Shown here: one piece after another, positions 22,186 through 33,349 of the stretch | Numbering within the stretch: position 1 is the stretch's first letter | How the letters are laid out: each line of letters starts with the position of its first letter | Notes under the pieces: generated by a model | Told to the model about the DNA's origin: nothing | The model's database searches: none | Seen by the model: only the letters and a program-made list of their open reading frames with translations | Made by a program: the position numbers and the translations under genes | Assembly: GCF_014050225.1 (NCBI RefSeq) | Contig: NZ_JACFXV010000043.1 | Location: forward strand, 372,001-436,000 | Source of the DNA: Stappia albiluteola | GTDB lineage: Bacteria > Pseudomonadota > Alphaproteobacteria > Rhizobiales > Stappiaceae | Direction: 5' to 3' | Length of the DNA stretch: 64,000 nt

Positions 22186-23790
22186 GTGTCGCGACGCTAT
22201 TCCACATTCTTGAAATCGCTTGCTATCGCGATCGTGCTCGCGGTTGCGCCTTTGGTTGCCGCGAATTTCATACTCGACAACTACGCCGAGACACAGGCGC
22301 GCGCAGAAATGAAGGCGATCGGTTCGCGTTATGTCGCCCGCGCCGAAAAAGCGATCGAGAATGCCGTTACGACGCTCCAGAAGCTGCACCGCAACGGCGT
22401 CACCACGTGCGCTGCACAGGACCGGGCCAGGTTCAGGGCGGTCATCGGCGAGGCGCCTTTCATCCAGAAGATCGGCCTTGTAGATGCCACGGGCATTCGT
22501 ATGTGCATCGTGCCCGATCAGCCGATCGACGGCGAGGCAATCCTGCCGCCCTTGCGTGAGGATGCGCCGCTCGTCGGCATCGGCATGCTGAAGGCGGGCT
22601 TCGAGGGGACGCGGGTCGCCCTGGTCAGCTGGCGTCTGGAAAATGGCGTTCGCTTGTTTGCCGAACTGCCGCCGGCGGCGATTTCAATCGATCCGGGTCC
22701 CGACTACCTGCGGGCCTATCGGCATGTGGAACTCAGGCTTTCCAGCGACGTCGTGTGGCTCACTTCCGGCGAGGCAGAGTCCACGCAGCGTCTCGGCAGC
22801 GACATGCCGATGGTGGAGATCTCGTCGTCGAAGCAGTATCCGCTGCAGGCTATCGTCACGGCGCCGCGGTCGGCGTCCGGAACGCTGGTCCGGGACCTGA
22901 AGGTGATCACGGCGATCGCAAGCGCCGGTTTCGCGCTACTCTTCGTGATGGGCGGCGTCTGGATATCCTGGCGGCCCGACAACGAAGCGGAAGATGAATT
23001 CGTCCAGGCGATCCGCAACGGAGAGTTCATCCCCTACTACCAGCCGGTGATGGATATCGAGACCGGCAAGCTGCGCGGCTGCGAAGTGCTGATGCGCTGG
23101 CAGCGGCCGGACGGTTCGGTGATTTCGCCGGGCCAGTTCATGACCTTCGCCGAGACCTCGGGCCACATTTTCGAGATGACCCGGCAGGTCATGCGCAAGA
23201 CCCGCGCCGAAATGGCCGATCTCTATCACGAGAATCCGGAGCTGAAGCTTTCGGTCAACTTGTTTGCCGGGCATTTCGAGGATCGCCAGATCGTCGAGGA
23301 TATCGTGCAGGTCTACGGCGATTCCCGCATCGCCTATCAGCAGATCGTTCTGGAGGTGACCGAGCGCCAACCGCTCGGAAACATGGATCTGGCCCGCAAG
23401 ATCATCGCGGAATTGCAGGCGCTCGGCGTTCGTGTCGCGCTGGATGATGTGGGCACGGGCCACGGCGGCCTTGCTTATCTGCAGCGGCTTGGCATCGATA
23501 TCATCAAGATCGACAAGATGTTCATCGACTATCTCGGCACGGACGACAATTCGACGACCATCGTCGATACGCTTGTCGAGCTCGCCGACAACCTTGGCAT
23601 GGGCATCATCGCCGAGGGCGTGGAAACCATGGAACAGATCGAGCGATTGCGCGCGCTCGGCGTCTCCGCCGCGCAGGGCTATATCTTCGCGCCGCCCTTG
23701 CCGGCGAAGCTTTTCATCGATCTGGCCAAAGCACTGGCCGCCAAGCCGGACGCCACCTTTGGCGAAGACTCGATCAAGCTTGTTGGCTAG
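22186..23790 (+). CDS. c-di-GMP phosphodiesterase with periplasmic CSS-type sensor (EAL)
   Basis: A 534-residue membrane protein. One N-terminal helix, a periplasmic CSS-motif-like domain (Cys in GVTTCAA and RMCIVPD), and a second helix (AGFALLFVMGGVW) precede a cytoplasmic EAL domain. Catalytic residues look intact: EVL in place of EAL, SVNLFAGHF, VLEVTERQ, ALDDVGTGHG, IIKIDK, IAEGVET and AAQGYIF. It should hydrolyse c-di-GMP in response to periplasmic redox state, as known for CSS-EAL proteins. GTG start. It sits directly upstream of the YcaO-TfuA region, but a 384-base gap separates them. Confidence 0.9.
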   Translation: MSRRYSTFLKSLAIAIVLAVAPLVAANFILDNYAETQARAEMKAIGSRYVARAEKAIENAVTTLQKLHRNGVTTCAAQDRARFRAVIGEAPFIQKIGLVDATGIRMCIVPDQPIDGEAILPPLREDAPLVGIGMLKAGFEGTRVALVSWRLENGVRLFAELPPAAISIDPGPDYLRAYRHVELRLSSDVVWLTSGEAESTQRLGSDMPMVEISSSKQYPLQAIVTAPRSASGTLVRDLKVITAIASAGFALLFVMGGVWISWRPDNEAEDEFVQAIRNGEFIPYYQPVMDIETGKLRGCEVLMRWQRPDGSVISPGQFMTFAETSGHIFEMTRQVMRKTRAEMADLYHENPELKLSVNLFAGHFEDRQIVEDIVQVYGDSRIAYQQIVLEVTERQPLGNMDLARKIIAELQALGVRVALDDVGTGHGGLAYLQRLGIDIIKIDKMFIDYLGTDDNSTTIVDTLVELADNLGMGIIAEGVETMEQIERLRALGVSAAQGYIFAPPLPAKLFIDLAKALAAKPDATFGEDSIKLVG

Positions 23791-24174
23791 GGCTCCGACC
23801 CTAGGGGAAATTACTTATCGGAAATTCCGCGAGAATTCCGAAATATTTCCGGGATTACCCGCTTGTCATCCAATGCCTTAAGAGGCACGATTGCACGGTT
23901 CGGCGAGTGAGGTGAGTATTCGCAATTTGCCCGTGCAGATCTCCCTGTTGCGGGAGCGTACGGCAACAAAAAAGCCTTCCGGCATTTTGCGCGATGCTTT
24001 CCGATGCATACCTTCCTTTCAGGGAAATGCCGTTTCGCGCACCATCGGGAGAGCCGGTATGCCTGAGCAGTTTCAGGTGCGAATGGCAAGGTGGCGCAAG
24101 GCGTTACGGAGGTGTCGCCTTGCCGTACATGCAGAGCCGGGGTGTTTGGTCCAATAGTCGGGAAGGCGGTAGCA
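23791..24174. promoter_or_regulatory. 384-base regulatory gap before the cyclase-ycaO-tfuA genes
   Basis: No convincing gene. A 6-bp inverted repeat (CTAGGG and CCCTAG, 23787-23804) spans the end of the EAL gene, without a T-run. Right after it, TTCCG occurs at 23825, 23836 and 23847, exactly 11 bp apart. It overlaps two palindromes, CGGAA-N-TTCCG (23819-23829) and GAAATATTTC (23840-23849). A weak TTGCAC at 23891 has no convincing -10 partner. A basic 81-codon open frame (GTG 23912 to 24157) is possible but has little support. GGAAGG at about 24161 is the binding site for the cyclase gene. Confidence 0.5.
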
Positions 24175-27100
24175 ATGTCGTTTGGCGAGCGACGTGAAGT
24201 CACCGCGTTATTCTACGATCTCATAGATTCTACAAAGCTGCTTACGCATTCCGACCTGGAGGAGTTCCAGGACGTGATTGCGGCTTTCCACGAGAAGACG
24301 AGCCGTGCCGTCCAGTCCCAGGGCGGATCCATCGGCGAGACTTTCGGCGATGGCGGCATGGCGTTCTTCGGGCATCCGGAACCGCTGGAGGATACGGCGA
24401 CGGCGGCGATCCAGGCCGGGCTCGATATCGTGCAGGCCTGCCGCAGGCTTGCAGCCGAGGCGGGCCGCGACGATCTTCACGTTCGCATCGGCATTGCCAC
24501 ATCGGAGGTCGTCGTTCAGCTTGGCGAGGCCAAGATCGGGGCGGGCGTAACGGGTCTCGCGCCGACGCTTGCCTCGCGCCTGCAGGGGTTGGCCGAGCCG
24601 GACACCGTCGTGGTTGGCGAACGCACGAGAGAGCTGGCGAGGCGACACTTTTCCTACACGTATCTTGGCGCGCACAAGCTGAAGGGCCTCGATGAGGAAC
24701 TCAATCTCTGGAGTGTCAAGCCGCGCGCCATCAGGGCGAGCCGTTTTCTTGCATCGGGTCGCCTGAGCACGCACCTGGTCGGGCGAAAGCGTGAGCTTGA
24801 GACGGCATTGGGTCTATGGAAGAAAGCGGCGTCAGGGCAGGGACAGACGCTGGTGCTGACAGGCGAGGCAGGGATCGGCAAGTCCCGCTTTGCCTACGAA
24901 GTCTTCCGTCGGACGCGTGCGGGACGATCCCGCTTGACCGTCCTACAATGCGATCCGCGAAGCTCCAACATTTCCATGTTTCCGCTGGCCGAACTCGTCA
25001 GGGCTTCCTCGGGCCTTGGCGAAGATATCGGGGCCCACGGCCTGGGTGCCGTGGCGGATCTGATGCAGGGCGAAGGGATCAGCGATCCCGAAGTCATCGA
25101 GACGATCGCATTTGCGGCCGGTGTCGCACCTGCACCCAACGGGCTCGCTGCCGAGGTGAACCCCCAGCGGGTGCGCGATCGCATCGTCTGGGCGATACAT
25201 GAGGTTCTGGCCGCCTGGGCACAGGCCGGGCCTGTCATCATCGCGGTGGAAGACCTGCATTGGATCGACCCGACTTCGCTCGACCTTCTCAAGGATCTGA
25301 CTGACTGGATAGCCGACAAGCCTATCCTTCTGGTGCTGACGATGCGTGACGCGCAGGGCTGGCTGGAGAGCCGAAAGGATGTCACGCATATTGCCTTAAA
25401 CAGACTGCAGGCAGACGAGATCGGCGATTTCGTTGCAAAGCTCATCCCTGGCGACGATCAGGATGGCGGGCGGGAGGCGGCCTTGCCGCTGATCTATCAG
25501 CGGACGAACGGAATCCCGCTTTTCCTTGAAGAACTTCTGCAATGGCTGAAGAACGAACCTGGAAACGGGGATGTGGATACGCTGACGAAGCTTTCCAACG
25601 CCCGGATATTCAGCTTCGAGAACCTGCTTTCGGCAAGGCTCGGCGCAAGCCGGCTAGCCAAGAGCGTGGCGCAGGCGGCTTCCGTGATCGGCCATGCCTT
25701 CGACGAAGAGACGCTCTGGTCGATCCTTCCCGACGTCGCCGCGAATGACATAACCCACGCGCTGGACGACCTGGTGGAAGCCAAGCTGCTGGTACGAAGA
25801 CGTGACGGAAGCGGCGGAACCTACGATTTTCGCCATGCGATGATCGAGGAAACGCTCTACGGCACCTTGCTGCGCAAGTCCCGCAGCGCACTGCACGAGA
25901 AGATCTATCTTGCCGCAAGCGCGGGCACGGCGCGCACGAAACTGGGTCCGGCGCGGCTCGCCGAGCATGCGGAACGGGCCGGCCTGTCGAAAGAGGCGGT
26001 GCGGAATTTCATTGCTGCGGCAAAGGAAAGTTCCATTCGTTCGGCGGTCGTCGAGGCACGGCATTTTCTGGAGCGGGCATCCAGGTTGCTGGAGGCTATC
26101 AATCCGGACGACGAACGCGAAAAGCTTGAACTGACGGCGTTGGCCGCGCTTGGGCCGATCCTCACCAGCACGCAGGGAACGCGCTCTCCGGAAGCCTGTC
26201 GGCTTTATGAAAGGGCGGTCGAGATTGCCCGCCGCCGTCCGATTCATGAGCAGGCCCAGTGGTTCCCGATCTATTGGGGCTGGTGGTATACGGGGGCCGA
26301 TTTCGGCATTCAGCGCGAACGGGCGGAAACGGTCATGTCTGACCTCAGGCAGGTCGCCGATCCGGAAGTGCAATTGCAGGTCCAGCATTGCGTCTGGGCG
26401 ATCGATTTCAACATGGGGCGGCACGACACTTGCGTAGCGGCGGTTGATGCAGGCCTTGAGCTCTATCAGGCCGGCCGCGGCCGCGAAAGCCTGACGCTTT
26501 ATGGCGGCCACGACCCCCGCGTCTGCGGACTCGGACAAAAGGGCCTGTCGCTCTGGTTCAAGGGTTTTCCCTCCCGGGCCCTCGCTTCTGTCGAGGAGTC
26601 TCTTCGATGGGCGCGTGAGATCAGGCATATGGGCAGTGAATGCCATGCCTGCGACATCGCCGCGATGCTGCATCGATATCGCAGGGATTACGGGTCATTG
26701 CGGGAAGTTATTGGCAATATGCGCGAGTTGGCGCGCAAGCACGATCTGCCGTCCCTGGACGCCAAAAGCATGATCTTTGAAGGCTGGTGCATGGCGGAGC
26801 TTGGCGACCCGGCCGCCGGTGGGACGGCTGCGGAAGAAGGTGCGGCAATCCTTGCGGGGATTGGAACGCGAGAGGACTTCCCCGTTTATTCCGAGATGCG
26901 GGCGGAAATCCTCGCCATGCAGGGGGAAACGGCCGCCGCGCTAAGCCTGCTGAACGAAGCGCTGGCGGAAGCCGAGGCGACCGGCCATCGCTATTGGCTG
27001 GCAGAGCTTTACCGTCGCCGGGCGCTGGTTCTTGATCAGCGCGGCGAGGGGAAGACCGAAGTGGTGGACGCCCTCAACCGGGCGCTTGCGGTGGCGCAGG

Positions 27101-27288
27101 ACCAGGGAGCGAAGCTGCTCTTCCTTATGGCCTATCATACCGCACTGGAGCTTGGGGTTGCCGACGAGATCGAGCCCGAGTTCCATCAACAGGCTCTGGC
27201 GGCGGCGAAAACGGTCGAACAATCCACCGAGATGGCAGCGTTGCTGGCCTCGATTGCAGCGAAGGCTGGCGCGGCTTTCCCGGGATGA
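24175..27288 (+). CDS. Class III cyclase-like domain / AAA ATPase / helical-repeat signalling protein
   Basis: A 1037-residue cytoplasmic protein. Residues 1-180 are a class III nucleotide cyclase homology domain with both metal-binding Asp (D15 in FYDLIDST, D59 in FGDGG) and the Arg (R135 in ASRLQ). The usual substrate Lys is Glu (E55), the adenine-binding Asp is Gly (G124), and the transition-state Asn is Thr (T131). An AAA_16 ATPase follows (Walker A GEAGIGKS near 230-237, Walker B VIIAVEDLHWID). A long helical C terminus with TPR-like repeats completes it. This is the layout of bacterial cyclase-AAA regulators. The start at 24175 has GGAAGG upstream; an in-frame extension of 28 codons is unlikely. 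It overlaps ycaO by 4 bases (ATGA), so it probably senses or regulates for that system (inference). Confidence 0.88.
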   Translation: MSFGERREVTALFYDLIDSTKLLTHSDLEEFQDVIAAFHEKTSRAVQSQGGSIGETFGDGGMAFFGHPEPLEDTATAAIQAGLDIVQACRRLAAEAGRDDLHVRIGIATSEVVVQLGEAKIGAGVTGLAPTLASRLQGLAEPDTVVVGERTRELARRHFSYTYLGAHKLKGLDEELNLWSVKPRAIRASRFLASGRLSTHLVGRKRELETALGLWKKAASGQGQTLVLTGEAGIGKSRFAYEVFRRTRAGRSRLTVLQCDPRSSNISMFPLAELVRASSGLGEDIGAHGLGAVADLMQGEGISDPEVIETIAFAAGVAPAPNGLAAEVNPQRVRDRIVWAIHEVLAAWAQAGPVIIAVEDLHWIDPTSLDLLKDLTDWIADKPILLVLTMRDAQGWLESRKDVTHIALNRLQADEIGDFVAKLIPGDDQDGGREAALPLIYQRTNGIPLFLEELLQWLKNEPGNGDVDTLTKLSNARIFSFENLLSARLGASRLAKSVAQAASVIGHAFDEETLWSILPDVAANDITHALDDLVEAKLLVRRRDGSGGTYDFRHAMIEETLYGTLLRKSRSALHEKIYLAASAGTARTKLGPARLAEHAERAGLSKEAVRNFIAAAKESSIRSAVVEARHFLERASRLLEAINPDDEREKLELTALAALGPILTSTQGTRSPEACRLYERAVEIARRRPIHEQAQWFPIYWGWWYTGADFGIQRERAETVMSDLRQVADPEVQLQVQHCVWAIDFNMGRHDTCVAAVDAGLELYQAGRGRESLTLYGGHDPRVCGLGQKGLSLWFKGFPSRALASVEESLRWAREIRHMGSECHACDIAAMLHRYRRDYGSLREVIGNMRELARKHDLPSLDAKSMIFEGWCMAELGDPAAGGTAAEEGAAILAGIGTREDFPVYSEMRAEILAMQGETAAALSLLNEALAEAEATGHRYWLAELYRRRALVLDQRGEGKTEVVDALNRALAVAQDQGAKLLFLMAYHTALELGVADEIEPEFHQQALAAAKTVEQSTEMAALLASIAAKAGAAFPG

Positions 27289-28415
27289 CGGGACTCCCCA
27301 CCAGCGACGCGCTGAAGCGCCTGCTGCCGCTGGCGCCGAGGCTCGGCATCACCCGGATCGGAGACCTTACCGGTCTAGACCGGATCGGTATTCCGGTTGT
27401 CCAGGCCGTAAGACCGCTCGGTCTTGCAAATTCCGTCACCCAGGGAAAGGGGACGAGCCTGGATGCGGCAGCCGTTTCCGCGATCATGGAAGCTGCCGAG
27501 CAGTTTTTTGCAGAACGCGTTGACGTCATGGACCCAGTGATGGCTACAGCCCTGGAGTTGGGTGCCGATACCGCATCCTTCGGGCTTCACCTGCTGGAAG
27601 GTGTTGCTGAGGATTGGCATCGACGATCGCTGGCCTGGTTGCCGGCGGAAGACCTGCTGGGCGGCCCTGGCGGCTGGTTGCCGATGGAACTGGTGCACAC
27701 CGCCTATATAGATCCGCCACTGGCATCGGACGGAGTATTTGAGGCTTCGACCACGGGCCTTGCCTGCGGCTTCTGTCGGCAGCAGGCACAGCTGCACGGG
27801 CTTCTGGAATGTATCGAACGCGACGCCATCGCCCGGGCGCAGCAAACGCACGGTTTCTTCCATCGCTTCCGGTTCGAGCCCCAAACGCTCGAAGACGAGA
27901 CGCTGACTTTGCTGATCGAAATGCTCCAGGCAGCGGGGCTGATTGCCGCATTCTGGGCAGCAGATGCGGCGGGGAATGTGCCGACCGTCTGGTGCCAGAT
28001 CATGGAAGATGAAGGCGCGGTGCCGTTGATGCCGTTGCCCGCCGAAGGATTTGCATCTGCGCTCGACTTCAAACGGGCGTCGCGTGGGGCCCTGCTGGAG
28101 GCCGCGCAGTCTCGGCTTGCGGCGATATCCGGCGCAAGGGACGATATCAGCCGGCTTGCATTCCCCGCCCGCTTCGACTGGGAGGCGATCGACACCCATC
28201 GCCGCTTCCTGCGCGAGGGAAAAAAGTCGTTTTGCTATGAGGATCTCGCGAACCGGGAAATCAGCGGTGGCTCGGCGCTCGACCCAGTCGTGGAACGCCT
28301 TGCTGCCGACGGAATTACCTCGGTCCTGCATGTTGCGCTCGACAACACACCGTGCCCAGAGATTTTGGCGAGCCGCATATTCGTGCCCCAATTCTTGCCG
28401 CTGCGGGAGGCATGA
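27285..28415 (+). CDS. YcaO-domain ATP-dependent amide-modifying enzyme
   Basis: A 376-residue YcaO protein. YcaO enzymes phosphorylate a backbone amide with ATP so that a nucleophile can form an azoline, amidine or thioamide. Visible family features: QGKGTSLDAAAVSAIMEAAE (residues 53-72), a STTGLACG loop (155-162), LLECIERD (173-180) supplying metal/ATP-binding Glu, and a late ALLEAAQSRLAAISGARDD segment. The C terminus (FVPQFLPLREA) lacks the PxPxP tail common in azoline-forming members. It is paired with tfuA 4 bases downstream, as in thioamide-forming systems. No RRE leader-binding domain is present. Start codon overlaps the cyclase stop. Confidence 0.93.
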   Translation: MTGLPTSDALKRLLPLAPRLGITRIGDLTGLDRIGIPVVQAVRPLGLANSVTQGKGTSLDAAAVSAIMEAAEQFFAERVDVMDPVMATALELGADTASFGLHLLEGVAEDWHRRSLAWLPAEDLLGGPGGWLPMELVHTAYIDPPLASDGVFEASTTGLACGFCRQQAQLHGLLECIERDAIARAQQTHGFFHRFRFEPQTLEDETLTLLIEMLQAAGLIAAFWAADAAGNVPTVWCQIMEDEGAVPLMPLPAEGFASALDFKRASRGALLEAAQSRLAAISGARDDISRLAFPARFDWEAIDTHRRFLREGKKSFCYEDLANREISGGSALDPVVERLAADGITSVLHVALDNTPCPEILASRIFVPQFLPLREA

Positions 28416-28419
28416 AGCG

Positions 28420-29184
28420 ATGGCGGCTAATTCGGCGAACGATTTGCCCGTTGTCTTTCTCGGTCCCTCATTGCCGCGCATCGAGGCGGAGCAGGCCCTT
28501 GCCGCTCATTACCTTCCGCCTGCCTCACAAGGTTCGGTGGTGAGGGCAGTCCTTGACTATCGTCCACCGGCCATCGTGCTGATCGACGGCGCATTCCAGG
28601 GAGAGCCGGCGGTCAGGCACAAGGAAATCCTTTGGGCGCTTTCGCAGGGTATCCCGGTATTCGGAGCTTCCAGCATGGGCGCGCTCCGCGCGGCGGAACT
28701 GGCGCCTTTTGGAATGACGGGCATCGGTTTGATCTATCGCTGGTACAGGCGCTTTCCTTTGCTGGCCGACGATGCGGTGGCGGTGCTGCATGGCCCGGCC
28801 GAACTTGGCTCCATGCCACTCACCACCTCGCTGGTCGATTTGAGGCGGACCTTTCGCCGGGCGGAACGAGAGGGGGTCATCGATGCACAGCAGTCGGCAA
28901 GGCTGTGTGATGTGGCCGCCATGCTGAATTTCCGCGACAGGACGATCCTGCGCGCGGTGGAAAGAGCGGTCGGGCTCAAGGGAGATAGTTCGCGGGCGTT
29001 GGAAATAGTCGCGAGCCTGACGCACTGTATCGTCATGCAAAAGAAGGGCGATGCCCTGGCTGCGCTTCGATTGGTTGCAAAACTTATCGATAAGGGCGGC
29101 CTTCCCAAGCCGAATCCCATTGAGTTCGTAACAACGACAACCTTTATTAGAGACCTCGTTCACAGCGGCATAAGGCTGACATGA
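28420..29184 (+). CDS. tfuA: TfuA-like protein, YcaO partner
   Basis: A 254-residue TfuA-domain protein. Motifs VFLGPSLPRIEA at the start, then VLIDGAFQGEP, RHKEILWAL and VFGASSMGALRAAELAPFGM, are the core of the family. TfuA proteins accompany YcaO enzymes; in thioviridamide-type clusters and in methyl-coenzyme M reductase modification the pair installs thioamides, with TfuA thought to help deliver sulfide. The name comes from trifolitoxin clusters of rhizobia. GGGAGG in the end of ycaO is 8 bases upstream. The frame is open further upstream through ycaO, but the ATG at 28420 gives the family N terminus. Confidence 0.93.
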   Translation: MAANSANDLPVVFLGPSLPRIEAEQALAAHYLPPASQGSVVRAVLDYRPPAIVLIDGAFQGEPAVRHKEILWALSQGIPVFGASSMGALRAAELAPFGMTGIGLIYRWYRRFPLLADDAVAVLHGPAELGSMPLTTSLVDLRRTFRRAEREGVIDAQQSARLCDVAAMLNFRDRTILRAVERAVGLKGDSSRALEIVASLTHCIVMQKKGDALAALRLVAKLIDKGGLPKPNPIEFVTTTTFIRDLVHSGIRLT

Positions 29185-29261
29185 GGTAATATGTTGCTCA
29201 TCGCGGCCTTTTAAGGGCAAGAAGAAGGTAGTAACGTTGCGGCATCGTTAGGGAGCTGCAT

Positions 29262-30440
29262 ATGCTGTCCGCCCCTCCGACGAGCAATCCTGCGAGCTTG
29301 GGCACTCGATTTCTGATCTATCCGCAGGCACCGCATGTGCCGGGATACGGCACGCCCGAAACCGTGTGGATCTCGACCGACCCGGCCTCTCTGCAGCCTG
29401 GCCCTGCGGATCGCCGCATCTATGTGCGCGATCCGGCGCTGCAGAAAGATCCTTACGAGTTTCCCTATCTGCCACCGTTCACAGGCGAGACGTTCGAGCC
29501 GGCGACGGCCGGGCCCGACGGGCACTTCGATACCATTCCCACATCGTCACGCGCGTTTGTTTCCGCACATGCCTTTGCCTGCGTGAGCCGTGTGCTTGAT
29601 ATCTGGGAAAGTTACCTTGGAAGGCCCATCGACTGGCATTTCGCCGAAACGTACGAGCGGCTTGAAATCATTCCGTGGCTCGATTGGGAGAACGCCCAGT
29701 CGGGCTACGGCTTTTTGGAACTCGGCATCGAGCGCGATGCGTCAGGTGAACCTTTTCCCTTCGCGCTGAATTTCGACACCATCGCCCATGAAGTCGGGCA
29801 TTCGATCCTGTTTTCGCTGATGGGCGTGCCGGAGGACGGGCGCTATACGCCGGACTTCGGGGCGTTCCATGAAGCGTCCGCCGATCTCGTATCTCTGATC
29901 TCCTTCCTGCATTTCGACAGTGGGCTTGACCGCCTGCTGCGGGGTTCGCAAGGCAACCTGCTGACGCTGAACGAGTTGAACCGGATCGCCGAACTTGCCG
30001 GCGAACGGCAGATCCGCCTCGCCAGCAATTCCCGCCGCATGTCGGAAGTAACCGGCGAGATCCACGATCGCTCGCGTCCCTTTACCGGGGCCATTTTCGA
30101 TACGATCGCGGATACGTTCCACGGCTTGCTCGTAGCCGACGGATTGGTCGACGAGCGCCTGCTCGACCTGGACATCCGGGAGTTCGACGAGGCTCTGCTC
30201 GAGCATATCAACGCCTTCACCGCAGATGCCTATCGCGCGCGGCCTTTCCTCTTCAAGGCCGCACTGACCGAGGCGCGGGACTTTGTCGGCATTTCGCTGG
30301 CACGTGCCTGGGATCGATTGCTGCCGGACGGGCTGAATGTCGAAGACGCGGGGCTTGCGGTGATCGAGGCCGCCGACGAACTGAGGCCGGGGCTTGCCCG
30401 GCAATTCGAGATCAATTTCCGCTGGCGGGAGATCGTATGA
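29262..30440 (+). CDS. M4-like zinc metallopeptidase without signal peptide
   Basis: A 392-residue protein with HEVGH at residues 176-180 and a second-ligand motif FHEASADL with Glu at 204, 24 residues downstream. This is the gluzincin pattern seen in thermolysin (M4)-like peptidases (HExxH, then NEAxSD). A His-containing segment EIHDRSRPFTGAIF near residue 270 resembles the HxNSG region that holds the transition-state His. No signal peptide, propeptide or membrane segment is seen, unlike most M4 enzymes, so it probably acts in the cytoplasm. AGGGAG precedes the start. It lies 77 bases after tfuA on the same strand, so it could process the product of the YcaO-TfuA pair (inference). Confidence 0.75.
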   Translation: MLSAPPTSNPASLGTRFLIYPQAPHVPGYGTPETVWISTDPASLQPGPADRRIYVRDPALQKDPYEFPYLPPFTGETFEPATAGPDGHFDTIPTSSRAFVSAHAFACVSRVLDIWESYLGRPIDWHFAETYERLEIIPWLDWENAQSGYGFLELGIERDASGEPFPFALNFDTIAHEVGHSILFSLMGVPEDGRYTPDFGAFHEASADLVSLISFLHFDSGLDRLLRGSQGNLLTLNELNRIAELAGERQIRLASNSRRMSEVTGEIHDRSRPFTGAIFDTIADTFHGLLVADGLVDERLLDLDIREFDEALLEHINAFTADAYRARPFLFKAALTEARDFVGISLARAWDRLLPDGLNVEDAGLAVIEAADELRPGLARQFEINFRWREIV

Positions 30441-30471
30441 CGGCGGAGAACCTTCGAGGGGAGATTGGAAT

Positions 30472-31083
30472 ATGAGCGATTTTCACAAGCCGACCTATTC
30501 TTTGAAAAATCCGGACGGAAGTTCCAAGGCGTACAATCCTACGGAAGTGCGCCTGTACGGCCTATCGGGAAGTCAGAGTATTTTGGCGAAAGGCGCGAAC
30601 TCATTTGAAGTCAGCTCCGGAGGCAACAGGTTTAATATCTCCGTAAATGCAGGGGCGTCAGGAGCGAAAAAGGGTGGTTCGCCGGCTTCGATACCGGGAA
30701 TTTCTCTGATAAATATCTCAAATACATCTTTGGGATCGATTGTTGCCCTTCTTTGCCTGAACTCCTCTCCCGACGATGAGCTCGAGGCGGGTGTGATTTT
30801 CGGCTATTCGTATGAAGGGCACTGCTATGACCTGCCGAAGCCGAAAGTGATGCTGATCCCGGCGCAGGGTGTCGACATTCCAGCCGACGATTGCGGATAT
30901 CACAACAAGCCGGATTACAAGGTCTGGGTGGTCGACAAGCTCGACCAGTGTATCGAAATCGAGGTGAATCAGGGCTTTATCGAACAGGTGGTTCTTGAAG
31001 CGAACCTGCCTGGCAAGCGTTCTCCCTCAACCTACCGGGCAACGATGGCGCTAAGCCACAGGAGCGGGCGCCTGACCGAATAG
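30472..31083 (+). CDS. Unknown 203-residue protein in AT-richer DNA
   Basis: Family not recognised. About residues 35-80 are rich in Ser, Gly and Asn (NSFEVSSGGNRFNISVN, then SLINISNTSLGS). The remainder is more ordinary, with four Cys (in ALLCLN, EGHCYD, DDCGYH and DQCIEIEV) and an acidic SPDDELEAG stretch. There is no signal peptide or membrane helix. By hand count the first 300 coding bases are about 49% GC, far below neighbouring genes. AGGGGAG lies 8 bases before the ATG. It is 31 bases after the metallopeptidase gene and 127 before the amidase gene, so it belongs to the same strand and probably the same unit. It may be the substrate or a partner of the modifying enzymes, but nothing in the sequence proves this. 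Confidence 0.7.
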   Translation: MSDFHKPTYSLKNPDGSSKAYNPTEVRLYGLSGSQSILAKGANSFEVSSGGNRFNISVNAGASGAKKGGSPASIPGISLINISNTSLGSIVALLCLNSSPDDELEAGVIFGYSYEGHCYDLPKPKVMLIPAQGVDIPADDCGYHNKPDYKVWVVDKLDQCIEIEVNQGFIEQVVLEANLPGKRSPSTYRATMALSHRSGRLTE

Positions 31084-31210
31084 GTTTGCGCCGCCGTCGA
31101 GAAGCCCAGGCTCAGTGCCTCGAGCATAGTCTTGTCGTTCTGGTTGGCTCGATCTGAACGGAATATGCTCCGGCCGGAAGAAGGGTGATTCCGGCGGCAA
31201 GAGGCGGCAG

Positions 31211-32491
31211 ATGGGAACGATCGTCGAAAAGGCAAGAAGCGCAATTGCCCGCGTTGAAAGCATGGGCGATCGGGCGACCGGCATTTTCACGGAATTCGAC
31301 CCGCAGCGAATCCTCGATGATGCAGCAAGAGCCGAAACGGCGGTGGAGGGCAGTAGCAGGGCCCTTCCGCTCGCCGGCATGCTCGTGTCCGTGAAGGACC
31401 TCTTCGACGAGGCGGGATATCGGACCACGGCGGGCTCAAGGCTTCTTGCCGACCAACCGCCGGCAGGGGCCGACAGCGATGTCGTGGCCCGCATGAAAGC
31501 GGCCGGTGCCGTGATGTTCGGCCGAACCGCGATGAGCGAATTCGCTTATTCCGGCGTTGGCTTAAACCCACACCATGGAACGCCCGGCAATGCACTGGAC
31601 GCCAGCCGCATTCCTGGTGGATCGACGTCGGGAGGCGCGCTGACGGTCGCGCTTGGCATCTGCGATATCGCGCTTGGCACTGACACCGGCGGTTCCGTTC
31701 GTATCCCCGCTGCAGCGAACGGCATTTACGGTTTCAAGCCCAGCCAATCGGCCGTTTCAAGACAGGGCGTGCATCCGCTGTCGCAGACGCTGGACAGCGT
31801 TGGGCCGCTGGCGGGCGACCTGACAACGACGATTGACGCATTCGAGGTGATGAGCGGGGGGCGGCGGCCGAGCGCCAAATCGCGTCGCGAGCCGCTTCGA
31901 CTCGCAAAGCCCCGCGGGGCTCTCACCAACGAACTGGACGAACCGATTGCCGATGCGTTCGACGATGCCTGTGAGAACATTGCCAAGCATGGTCACGAGA
32001 TACGGGAGATCGAACTCGGCTTCCTGCAAGATGCGCTTTTCGTCAACAAGATCATCGTTTCCGTCGAAGCGCATGCGATCTATGCGGGCTCGCTCCACAG
32101 GCTGGAGGAAGTCGGCGACCCTCGCGTGCTGAAGCGCATACGTTTTGCCGAAACTTTGTCGAAAACGGAGATACAGGACGCCTACCGGCTGCGCGCCGAC
32201 ACCGTGCGCCGATTTGGCGAAGTCCTGACCGGCTTCGACGGGCTTCTGGCCCCGACCCTGCAGATCCTCACGCCGACGATTGCGGATACCGAAGCGGATT
32301 TCGACCGGCTCAATGCCGCCATGCTGCGTAATCCGTCGCTGATCAATCTGGCGGATGGCTGCGCGATTACAATGCCAGTGGGTGGGGGAGGCGGTGGCCA
32401 GGCTCACGCCTTGATGATCGCCGGGTCTTCGGGAACGGACTGGCGAATCCTCGATATCGCCGAAACCTTGAGACCGATGCTTCCCGCCTGA
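31211..32491 (+). CDS. Amidase-signature family hydrolase
   Basis: A 426-residue amidase-signature enzyme. The Ser-cisSer-Lys triad is visible: Lys in LVSVKDLFDE (about residue 60), the cis-Ser in IPGGSTSGGA, and the nucleophilic Ser in DTGGSVRIPAA. LVSVKDLF and GRTAMSEFAYSG match the family core. There is no signal peptide, so it acts in the cytoplasm. The family hydrolyses amides or forms part of Glu-tRNA amidotransferases; no GatB or GatC is nearby, so GatA is unlikely. It ends the cluster, 9 bases from the convergent ksgA, and may act on an amide made or released by the YcaO system (inference). Confidence 0.9.
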   Translation: MGTIVEKARSAIARVESMGDRATGIFTEFDPQRILDDAARAETAVEGSSRALPLAGMLVSVKDLFDEAGYRTTAGSRLLADQPPAGADSDVVARMKAAGAVMFGRTAMSEFAYSGVGLNPHHGTPGNALDASRIPGGSTSGGALTVALGICDIALGTDTGGSVRIPAAANGIYGFKPSQSAVSRQGVHPLSQTLDSVGPLAGDLTTTIDAFEVMSGGRRPSAKSRREPLRLAKPRGALTNELDEPIADAFDDACENIAKHGHEIREIELGFLQDALFVNKIIVSVEAHAIYAGSLHRLEEVGDPRVLKRIRFAETLSKTEIQDAYRLRADTVRRFGEVLTGFDGLLAPTLQILTPTIADTEADFDRLNAAMLRNPSLINLADGCAITMPVGGGGGGQAHALMIAGSSGTDWRILDIAETLRPMLPA

Positions 32492-32500
32492 AGGCAGGTA

Positions 32501-33349
32501 TCATCCCGCTTCCGCGCGAAAGGCTTTCGCAAGTTCGACGAAGCCTTCGACCGATATTTCCTCAGCCCGGCGTGTCGGTTCCAGTCCGGCGGCCACGATC
32601 CTGTCCTCGGCATCCGGGCACAGGCTTTTCAGGCTTGCCCGCAGCATTTTGCGCCGCTGTCCGAAGGCAGCGGCAGTGACCTGTTCCAAGGCCTTGAGCG
32701 GACAGGCGAGGGGCTCGACCCTTGGCGTCAGATGGACTATCGCGGAGGTGACCTTCGGCGGCGGTGTGAAGGCCTTCGGGCTGATGTCGAACAGCAACTC
32801 CGCATTGGTGCGCCAACCCGCCAGAACGCCGAGACGGCCGTAGGCCTTGGATCCGGGGGAGGCAACAATTCGCTCGGCGACCTCCTTCTGGAACATCAGC
32901 GTCAGGGAGGACCATACCGGCGGCCACTCGCTGCTGGCGATCCACTGCAGCAGAAGCTGCGTTCCGACGTTGTAAGGCAGGTTTGCCACGATCTTCAGCG
33001 GTTCGCCGGCAGCGATTGCCGTCAGGTCGACCTCCAGCGCGTCGCCTTCAATGATTTCCAGCCGGCCGGGATAGCGTGCCGCGATTTCGGCCAGAACAGG
33101 CAGGCAGCGCCGGTCTTTCTCGACGGCGACGACCTTCTTTGCGCCGGCGACGAGGAGCGCGCGCGTAAGCCCGCCTGGTCCAGGCCCGACTTCGAGAACA
33201 GTCGCGTCGGTGAGATCGCCGGCGGCGCGGGCGATCTTCAGCGTCAGATTCAGGTCGAGCAGGAAATTCTGCCCAAGCGACTTGCGCGCATCGAGGCCGT
33301 GTTCCCGGATCACGTCGCGCAGCGGGGGAAGGTCATCGATTTGCGCCAT
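32501..33349 (-). CDS. rsmA: 16S rRNA dimethyladenosine transferase
   Basis: A 282-residue methyltransferase (KsgA/RsmA) that dimethylates two adjacent adenosines near the 3' end of 16S rRNA. N-terminal [10 protein letters not shown] and the SAM-binding [15 protein letters not shown] are typical, followed by [14 protein letters not shown], the catalytic NLPY motif. The C-terminal domain with [13 protein letters not shown] closes the enzyme. It starts the conserved leftward ksgA-pdxA-surA-lptDGF block; pdxA is 12 bases upstream. Confidence 0.97.

Follow-up and report, generated by a model that had tools for sequence, protein, structure and literature searches.

The question raised by this locus is whether the small GC-poor ORF at positions 30472..31083 (plus strand) of the window, that is, of the whole 64-kb stretch of DNA analysed here, encodes the substrate of the YcaO and TfuA enzymes specified upstream. 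The initial annotation considered that its product may be the modified protein or, alternatively, a recently acquired partner. The ORF begins with ATG at 30472, preceded by GGGGAG, finishes with the stop codon at 31081-31083 and encodes 203 amino acids; the stop codon of the peptidase gene is located 31 bp upstream. It is the last of a run of five plus-strand genes, where it follows those encoding a cyclase-ATPase-TPR protein, YcaO, TfuA and a zinc peptidase, and it was annotated as a predicted precursor or substrate protein from a conserved family that occupies the last place of the YcaO-TfuA-peptidase run.

Base composition and gene neighbourhood of the ORF

The GC content of the ORF is 0.528, with 0.490 in its first 300 nt and 0.564 in the remainder, versus 0.60-0.65 in the flanking genes and 0.623 in the whole window; the initial estimate of about 49% for the first 300 coding bases, in GC-rich surroundings, agreed exactly with the measured value. 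When the 64 kb were scanned, just 0.16% of the 612-nt segments were as GC-poor as the ORF, the minimum beginning at 30401, and the only 300-nt segments at or below 50% GC were those beginning at 30441-30501. The first 300 nt also have a GC3 of 0.52 vs 0.65-0.83 in the neighbouring genes, so that the comparison with flanking genes suggested in the initial annotation found the ORF lower in both GC and GC3. The idea of a recently acquired partner was contradicted by two observations: in 10 of the 13 homologues measured, the GC content of the gene is 8 to 17 points lower than that of the accompanying peptidase gene (L002, L013 and L014 are the exceptions, with a small dip of 1 to 4 points), and its relatives are found in the same clusters. 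Because these 10 homologues have the same dip, a separate recent acquisition of the ORF is not supported; the low GC has persisted in this gene and does not mark a separate arrival.

Similarity searches did not place the protein in any family, in agreement with the initial annotation. The best Pfam match had an E-value of 0.18 and the best match among PDB sequences, where McrA was not matched either, one of 1.4, while NCBIfam and PADLOC gave zero matches. The curated RiPP leader and precursor models of NCBIfam (NHLP, Nif11 and others) gave no match for the window protein or for the proteins of loci L003 and L009, and the repeat-tail homologues described below had weak unrelated NCBIfam matches only. 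Clear homology to an unrelated enzyme, initially named as evidence against a substrate, did not appear in these searches.

The YcaO gene (27285..28415, plus strand) encodes a full-length PF02624 domain (E 2e-47), and the nearest solved structure to its product is MJ1094 (6pe3, E 4.5e-11); the set E69, E72, E77, E175, E178, R179, E272 and R277 is kept in 33 homologues. The TfuA gene (28420..29184, plus strand) matched PF07812 (E 1e-42) and, below cut-off, NF033432, and its nearest solved structure is 6xp8 (E 1.5e-29). Adjacent ycaO and tfuA genes are one of the marks of a thioamidated RiPP cluster, and this arrangement was found here. Among the curated families and solved structures, both proteins are nearest to the archaeal McrA thioglycine proteins, with scores below the equivalog cut-offs. 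In several of the repeat-tail clusters TfuA has about 450 amino acids (L043, 8971-10356; L079, 7063-8403), including a C-terminal extension without known Pfam family. The first gene of the run (24091..27288, plus strand; start codon uncertain) encodes a protein with class III cyclase, AAA ATPase and TPR parts (PF00211, PF13191), which scored 355 bits against TIGR03903, whose cut-off is 706, and is probably the regulator of the system. A role in anti-phage defence was discarded, as merely the cyclase domain resembles the PycC models.

The other four genes were found in the same order at 13 of the 13 genome loci with the ORF, and this order recurs in further clusters. In the genomes reached by the peptidase profile alone, a member of the ORF family was directly downstream in seven of seven. 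The ORF family was present in every homologous cluster examined; its absence from other copies, which the initial annotation would have held against a substrate role, was not observed. The other genes of the operon are separated by 77 bp at most, which leaves no room between them for a second precursor gene. The initial annotation also placed the ORF between a metallopeptidase and an amidase (31211-32491). This position was confirmed, but the amidase was rejected as a member of the cluster because close homologues are missing from the related clusters, in which only distant matches of 25-27% were obtained.

In evenly drawn samples, the ORF family was present in 10 of the 297 genomes from the order and in 7 of the 385 from the class, both counts including the window's own genome. 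It was found neither in two sampled congeners nor in the sampled members of the other genera of the family (8 of 8 lacking it). The cluster together with the amidase (23790-32501) lies at a synteny breakpoint, because the EAL-domain gene on its left and rsmA on its right are about 50 kb apart in the two congeners; in the one congener examined more closely, the gene next to rsmA is guanylate-kinase-like and not the amidase. The cluster in its entirety may have been either gained, possibly by horizontal transfer, or lost in one piece.

Other arrangements were observed on plasmids. Four Rhizobium plasmids carry a cyclase-TPR gene followed by the peptidase and a precursor with an LSRSGG tail; TfuA is lacking from the entire plasmid in each case, and these loci have no adjacent YcaO/TfuA (L085, 6028-9940, on R. 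etli CFN42 p42c; L090; L091; L093). The enzymes for these pairs may be encoded at another place in the same genome; alternatively, peptidase and precursor may function without them. On a plasmid of Nostoc sp. UHCC 0302 (L086, 7427-17758), the peptidase homologue lies beside genes for two ferritin-like proteins, radical SAM and hypothetical proteins; the stretch examined contains no recognisable precursor of the ORF family, and the same peptidase is possibly used there with other modifying enzymes. Directly 3' of the precursor, some Rhizobium clusters have small ORFs of 112-116 amino acids and no known family (L085, 9974-10312; L087, 9666-10016). At L054/L023 (G187) a short ORF with the C-terminal part of the family only (VLDENLPGNRSPQAYGQSM...) was found, near which no peptidase, YcaO or TfuA was detected, and this is likely a decayed cluster. 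In the plasmid records examined, members of the precursor family were annotated as hypothetical or left unannotated.

Anatomy of the protein and tails of its distant homologues

Residues 33-100 (30568..30771, plus strand) form a hypervariable Ser/Gly/Asn-rich linker, encoded by the lowest-GC part of the gene, with a mean pairwise identity of 0.18 and an indel fraction of 0.41 among 17 homologues; mean identity is 0.48 for residues 101-165 and 0.51 for residues 166-203, where indels are nearly absent. The Ser/Gly/Asn richness of residues 35-80 and the four cysteines mentioned in the initial annotation were both found on hand count from the translation (21 of 46 residues; Cys 95, 118, 141 and 160). 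The Ser/Gly/Asn-rich region is less likely as a core, as it belongs to the hypervariable, indel-rich linker and the constraint sits in the domain and the tail. All four cysteines lie outside the tail, and Cys-based azoline formation was rejected because the tail has no Cys.

The linker is followed by a conserved beta-rich domain, residues 101-165 (30772..30966, plus strand), which contains GYSYEGHCYDLPKP, DDCGY and WVVDK and in which Y112, Y114, E115, G116, H117, C118, Y119, C141 and W152 are invariant among 14 homologues. AlphaFold predicted strands in residues 101-160 (pLDDT about 81-86) and a helix at 167-178, within the segment that joins the domain and the tail (residues 166-178; 30967..31005, plus strand). 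The whole model is beta-rich, with a mean pLDDT of only 64.7; Foldseek gave no match to solved structures (best E 0.46) and the best VIA-align Z was 3.0, in the noise, but this missing fold match says little because the model is weak. L015 and L024/L053 have lost both C118 (30823-30825) and C141 (30892-30894), and this joint loss suggests a paired function of the two conserved cysteines, possibly as a metal site or a disulfide.

The last 25 residues, 179-203 (31006..31080, plus strand; LPGKRSPSTYRATMALSHRSGRLTE), are the predicted C-terminal substrate (core) tail, present in the window protein as one unrepeated copy. P180, G181, R183, P185 and Y188 are invariant in 14 homologues, and dN over these 25 residues was 0 in five close pairs, whereas the linker diverges. 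The position of the tail matches that of tandem repeats in 13 distant homologues. Such copies, 3 to 12 in number and with units of 4-6 residues, occur in 13 of the 14 homologues from divergent clusters: SGANLG x7 (L043), SGARV x7-8 (L044, L047, L078, L079), SGAKV x7 (L080-L082), (V/T)GRSMM x4, a unit also written GRSMMT (L045), VGRSDL x4, also written GRSDLV (L046), (A/T)(S/G)RAVM x12, also written SRAVMA (L050), GMNV x4 (L049) and LSRSGG x3 (L085 and relatives). The tail of L048 is Arg-rich and unrepeated. A small residue precedes Arg, Lys or Asn in most tails (G-K-R, G-R-S, G-A-R, G-A-K, G-A-N, S-R-A). The copies show synonymous codon differences while their residues are fixed and, therefore, selection acts on the peptide. 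A profile built from 17 non-repeat (window-type) sequences and searched against 1,707 ORFs retrieved exactly the 14 divergent-cluster homologues and zero others (E 1e-14 to 2e-4); as the profile held non-repeat sequences only, the homology between the repeat-tail proteins and the window family does not rest on a circular argument. In the YcaO tree, a single branch (support 100/100) separates the clusters with repeat tails from those with single tails.

The peptidase, the proposed maturation and its alternatives

The gene preceding the ORF (29262..30440, plus strand) encodes a zinc peptidase with the thermolysin/M36 fold, and processing of the tail is its predicted role. The HExxH motif (H176, E177, H180), E204 and D208 are present in 25 of 25 peptidase homologues. 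With VIA-align, the model gave a Z of 22.0 against a fungal M36 enzyme (285 residues, rmsd 3.5) and of about 19 against the M4 enzymes thermolysin, LasB and vibriolysin, and a Foldseek match with an E-value of 1.2e-5 was obtained. The Pfam M4 and M36 models stayed below cut-off, the best E-values among 14 homologues being 0.018 (M4) and 0.031 (M36), and did not match the window peptidase. By inspection, no obvious signal peptide was seen at its N-terminus, and the enzyme appears to be cytoplasmic. The P1' site of thermolysin-type enzymes has an established preference for residues such as Val, Leu and Met. One of these three stands at a regular position in every repeat type except LSRSGG x3, which has Leu/Met, and this regularity would suit cleavage of that type.

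Taking into account its fixed-order co-inheritance with the enzymes and the core-like C-terminal repeats of its distant homologues, the ORF is the best candidate for the YcaO-TfuA substrate, and the initial proposal that it may be the modified protein gains support. The tail is likely a substrate of these enzymes in some form, including the case in which the protein stays intact, and if it is modified, a thioamide is likely rather than other YcaO chemistry. We favour, with some reserve, a RiPP-like precursor whose tail is modified by YcaO-TfuA and cut by the peptidase. The case for a leader plus core precursor appears strong for the repeat-tailed homologues, and homology and the constraint on the tail would extend it to the window protein.

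From the gene order, the homology, the tails and the active-site motif and fold of the peptidase, we infer the following course for this RiPP-like precursor. The linker and the beta-rich domain would constitute a large folded leader or recognition part, and the C-terminal tail the part modified by the adjacent YcaO-TfuA. With ATP, and with sulfur supplied via TfuA (for the TfuA/ThiS mechanism, the work cited in PMC13063428), YcaO would probably replace a backbone oxygen of the tail by sulfur, giving a thioamide. As for the site, our best guess falls on the Gly of LPG-K-R-S-P and/or that of S-G-R-L, the Gly of LPGKRSP being by itself a doubtful choice. Afterwards, the thermolysin-fold peptidase would sever the tail from the domain, and in the distant relatives its cleavage between the repeats would free a putative small peptide product in several copies, the cyclase-ATPase-TPR protein probably regulating the whole. 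Several points count against a precursor: the peptidase-precursor pairs that R. etli p42c and three other plasmids of Rhizobium carry without TfuA, a window tail that is conserved and unrepeated, unlike most variable cores, and the absence of a dedicated exporter adjacent to the cluster. Usual RiPP leaders are, moreover, far smaller than the leader part here.

The same Rhizobium pairs, together with the conservation of the folded domain, could be explained if the ORF protein were an accessory or recognition adaptor of YcaO-TfuA or of the peptidase, with the substrate elsewhere and the tail or repeats as a docking element; E. coli YcaO modifies a ribosomal protein and has no precursor gene nearby (PMC13063428). 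However, short tandem repeats with synonymous drift and lineage-switching sequences resemble cores and not a docking site for one enzyme family, and the operon has no room for another candidate substrate gene, so that we regard an adaptor as unlikely. Equally improbable, in our estimate, is that the modified protein stays intact, its tail being thioamidated for its own function, on the model of McrA or uL16, with the peptidase serving quality control or another target. The nearness in sequence of YcaO and TfuA to the archaeal McrA-modifying proteins and the strong conservation of the window-type tail agree with this possibility, but a peptidase with an intact zinc site is always encoded upstream of the gene, and the repeats of the relatives suit the release of copies.

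A structural repeat protein of the pentapeptide-type beta solenoid kind, unrelated to modification, was suggested by the SGARV tails, which match the Pfam Pentapeptide model with E-values of 0.002-0.03, below cut-off. Since a solenoid needs one period and the homologues have periods of 4, 5 and 6, and the window protein has no repeats, this is very improbable. Pfam searches for the A(D/N)LXX-type five-residue repeats of the pentapeptide-repeat proteins gave no match for the window protein and below cut-off or no matches for the homologues. Finally, the low GC of the ORF and the lack of the whole cluster, situated at a synteny breakpoint, in two sampled congeners could point to a recently acquired gene present by chance and unrelated to the cluster. 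This is hardly credible, as the gene recurs at this position in all the homologous YcaO-TfuA-peptidase clusters examined and the GC dip is common to most of the measured homologues.

Relation to known YcaO-TfuA systems

The RiPP-like precursor that we favour can be compared with the thiovarsolins of Streptomyces varsoviensis, in which the YcaO VarY and the TfuA VarT thioamidate short repeated cores of the precursor VarA, the thioamide being between Pro and Arg (PMC6511847). Both clusters have adjacent YcaO and TfuA genes and an Arg within the motif, and in both the short core is repeated in some members of the precursor family and unrepeated in others. Unlike the thiovarsolin repeats, the window tail is single, tandem short cores being found only in distant homologues. 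The N-terminal part here, of about 100-250 amino acids and predicted to be folded, is a further difference from the thiovarsolin system. In addition, a thermolysin-fold peptidase gene is adjacent here, while no specific protease was reported for the var cluster (PMC6511847). The archaeal McrA thioglycine YcaO-TfuA proteins (methan_mark_1, NF033432; MJ1094, 6pe3; PMC5589413), the closest curated families and structures, likewise have a protein and not a short peptide as substrate, but the window proteins score below their equivalog cut-offs and are encoded next to peptidase and cyclase genes. The E. coli protein uL16 shows that recognition of a folded protein surface is within the reach of YcaO enzymes (PMC13063428). 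As in the TOMM kinase/cyclase clusters (TIGR03903), a cyclase-ATPase-TPR protein is encoded beside YcaO; nevertheless, its score is half of the cut-off, the match begins after the first 274 profile positions and leaves the kinase part uncovered, and no NHLP-type precursor was found in the window cluster.

According to main-text passages of a survey of Rhizobium, over 500 YcaO-TfuA clusters exist in this genus, called by antiSMASH as thioamitide-type BGCs, the number of known proteobacterial TfuA-YcaO clusters exceeds a thousand, the characterised TfuA-YcaO thioamidated RiPPs all come from Actinobacteria, and some Rhizobium precursors were assigned to berninamycin-like or Nif11-like peptides (PMC8120280). 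Those BGCs probably include many of the loci studied here, and the same passages do not mention the ORF gene family, its peptidase or the repeat tails. The open-access literature searched contained no description of this precursor-peptidase family or of YcaO/TfuA with a metallopeptidase and repeats. Among systems of the known YcaO-TfuA kind, the ORF family likely constitutes a new family of precursors. More tentatively, it might represent an undescribed class of precursors, with a beta-rich folded carrier domain, an exchangeable single or repeated tail and a dedicated thermolysin-fold peptidase, mostly coupled to YcaO-TfuA, the pair occurring also without TfuA (Rhizobium) and a homologous peptidase beside radical-SAM and ferritin-like proteins (Nostoc).

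With a recognisable precursor family, the YcaO-TfuA clusters gain a substrate that can be tested, together with predictions of the region modified and of the enzyme that processes it. Searches for short-peptide precursors would tend to overlook a protein of 150-300 residues with its product in the last 25-70. The repeat-tailed distant relatives suggest that Alphaproteobacteria possess a so far undescribed family of precursors of modified peptides. If the precursor class is real, plant-associated and other members of this group would have in it a modular chassis on which small modified peptides are built.
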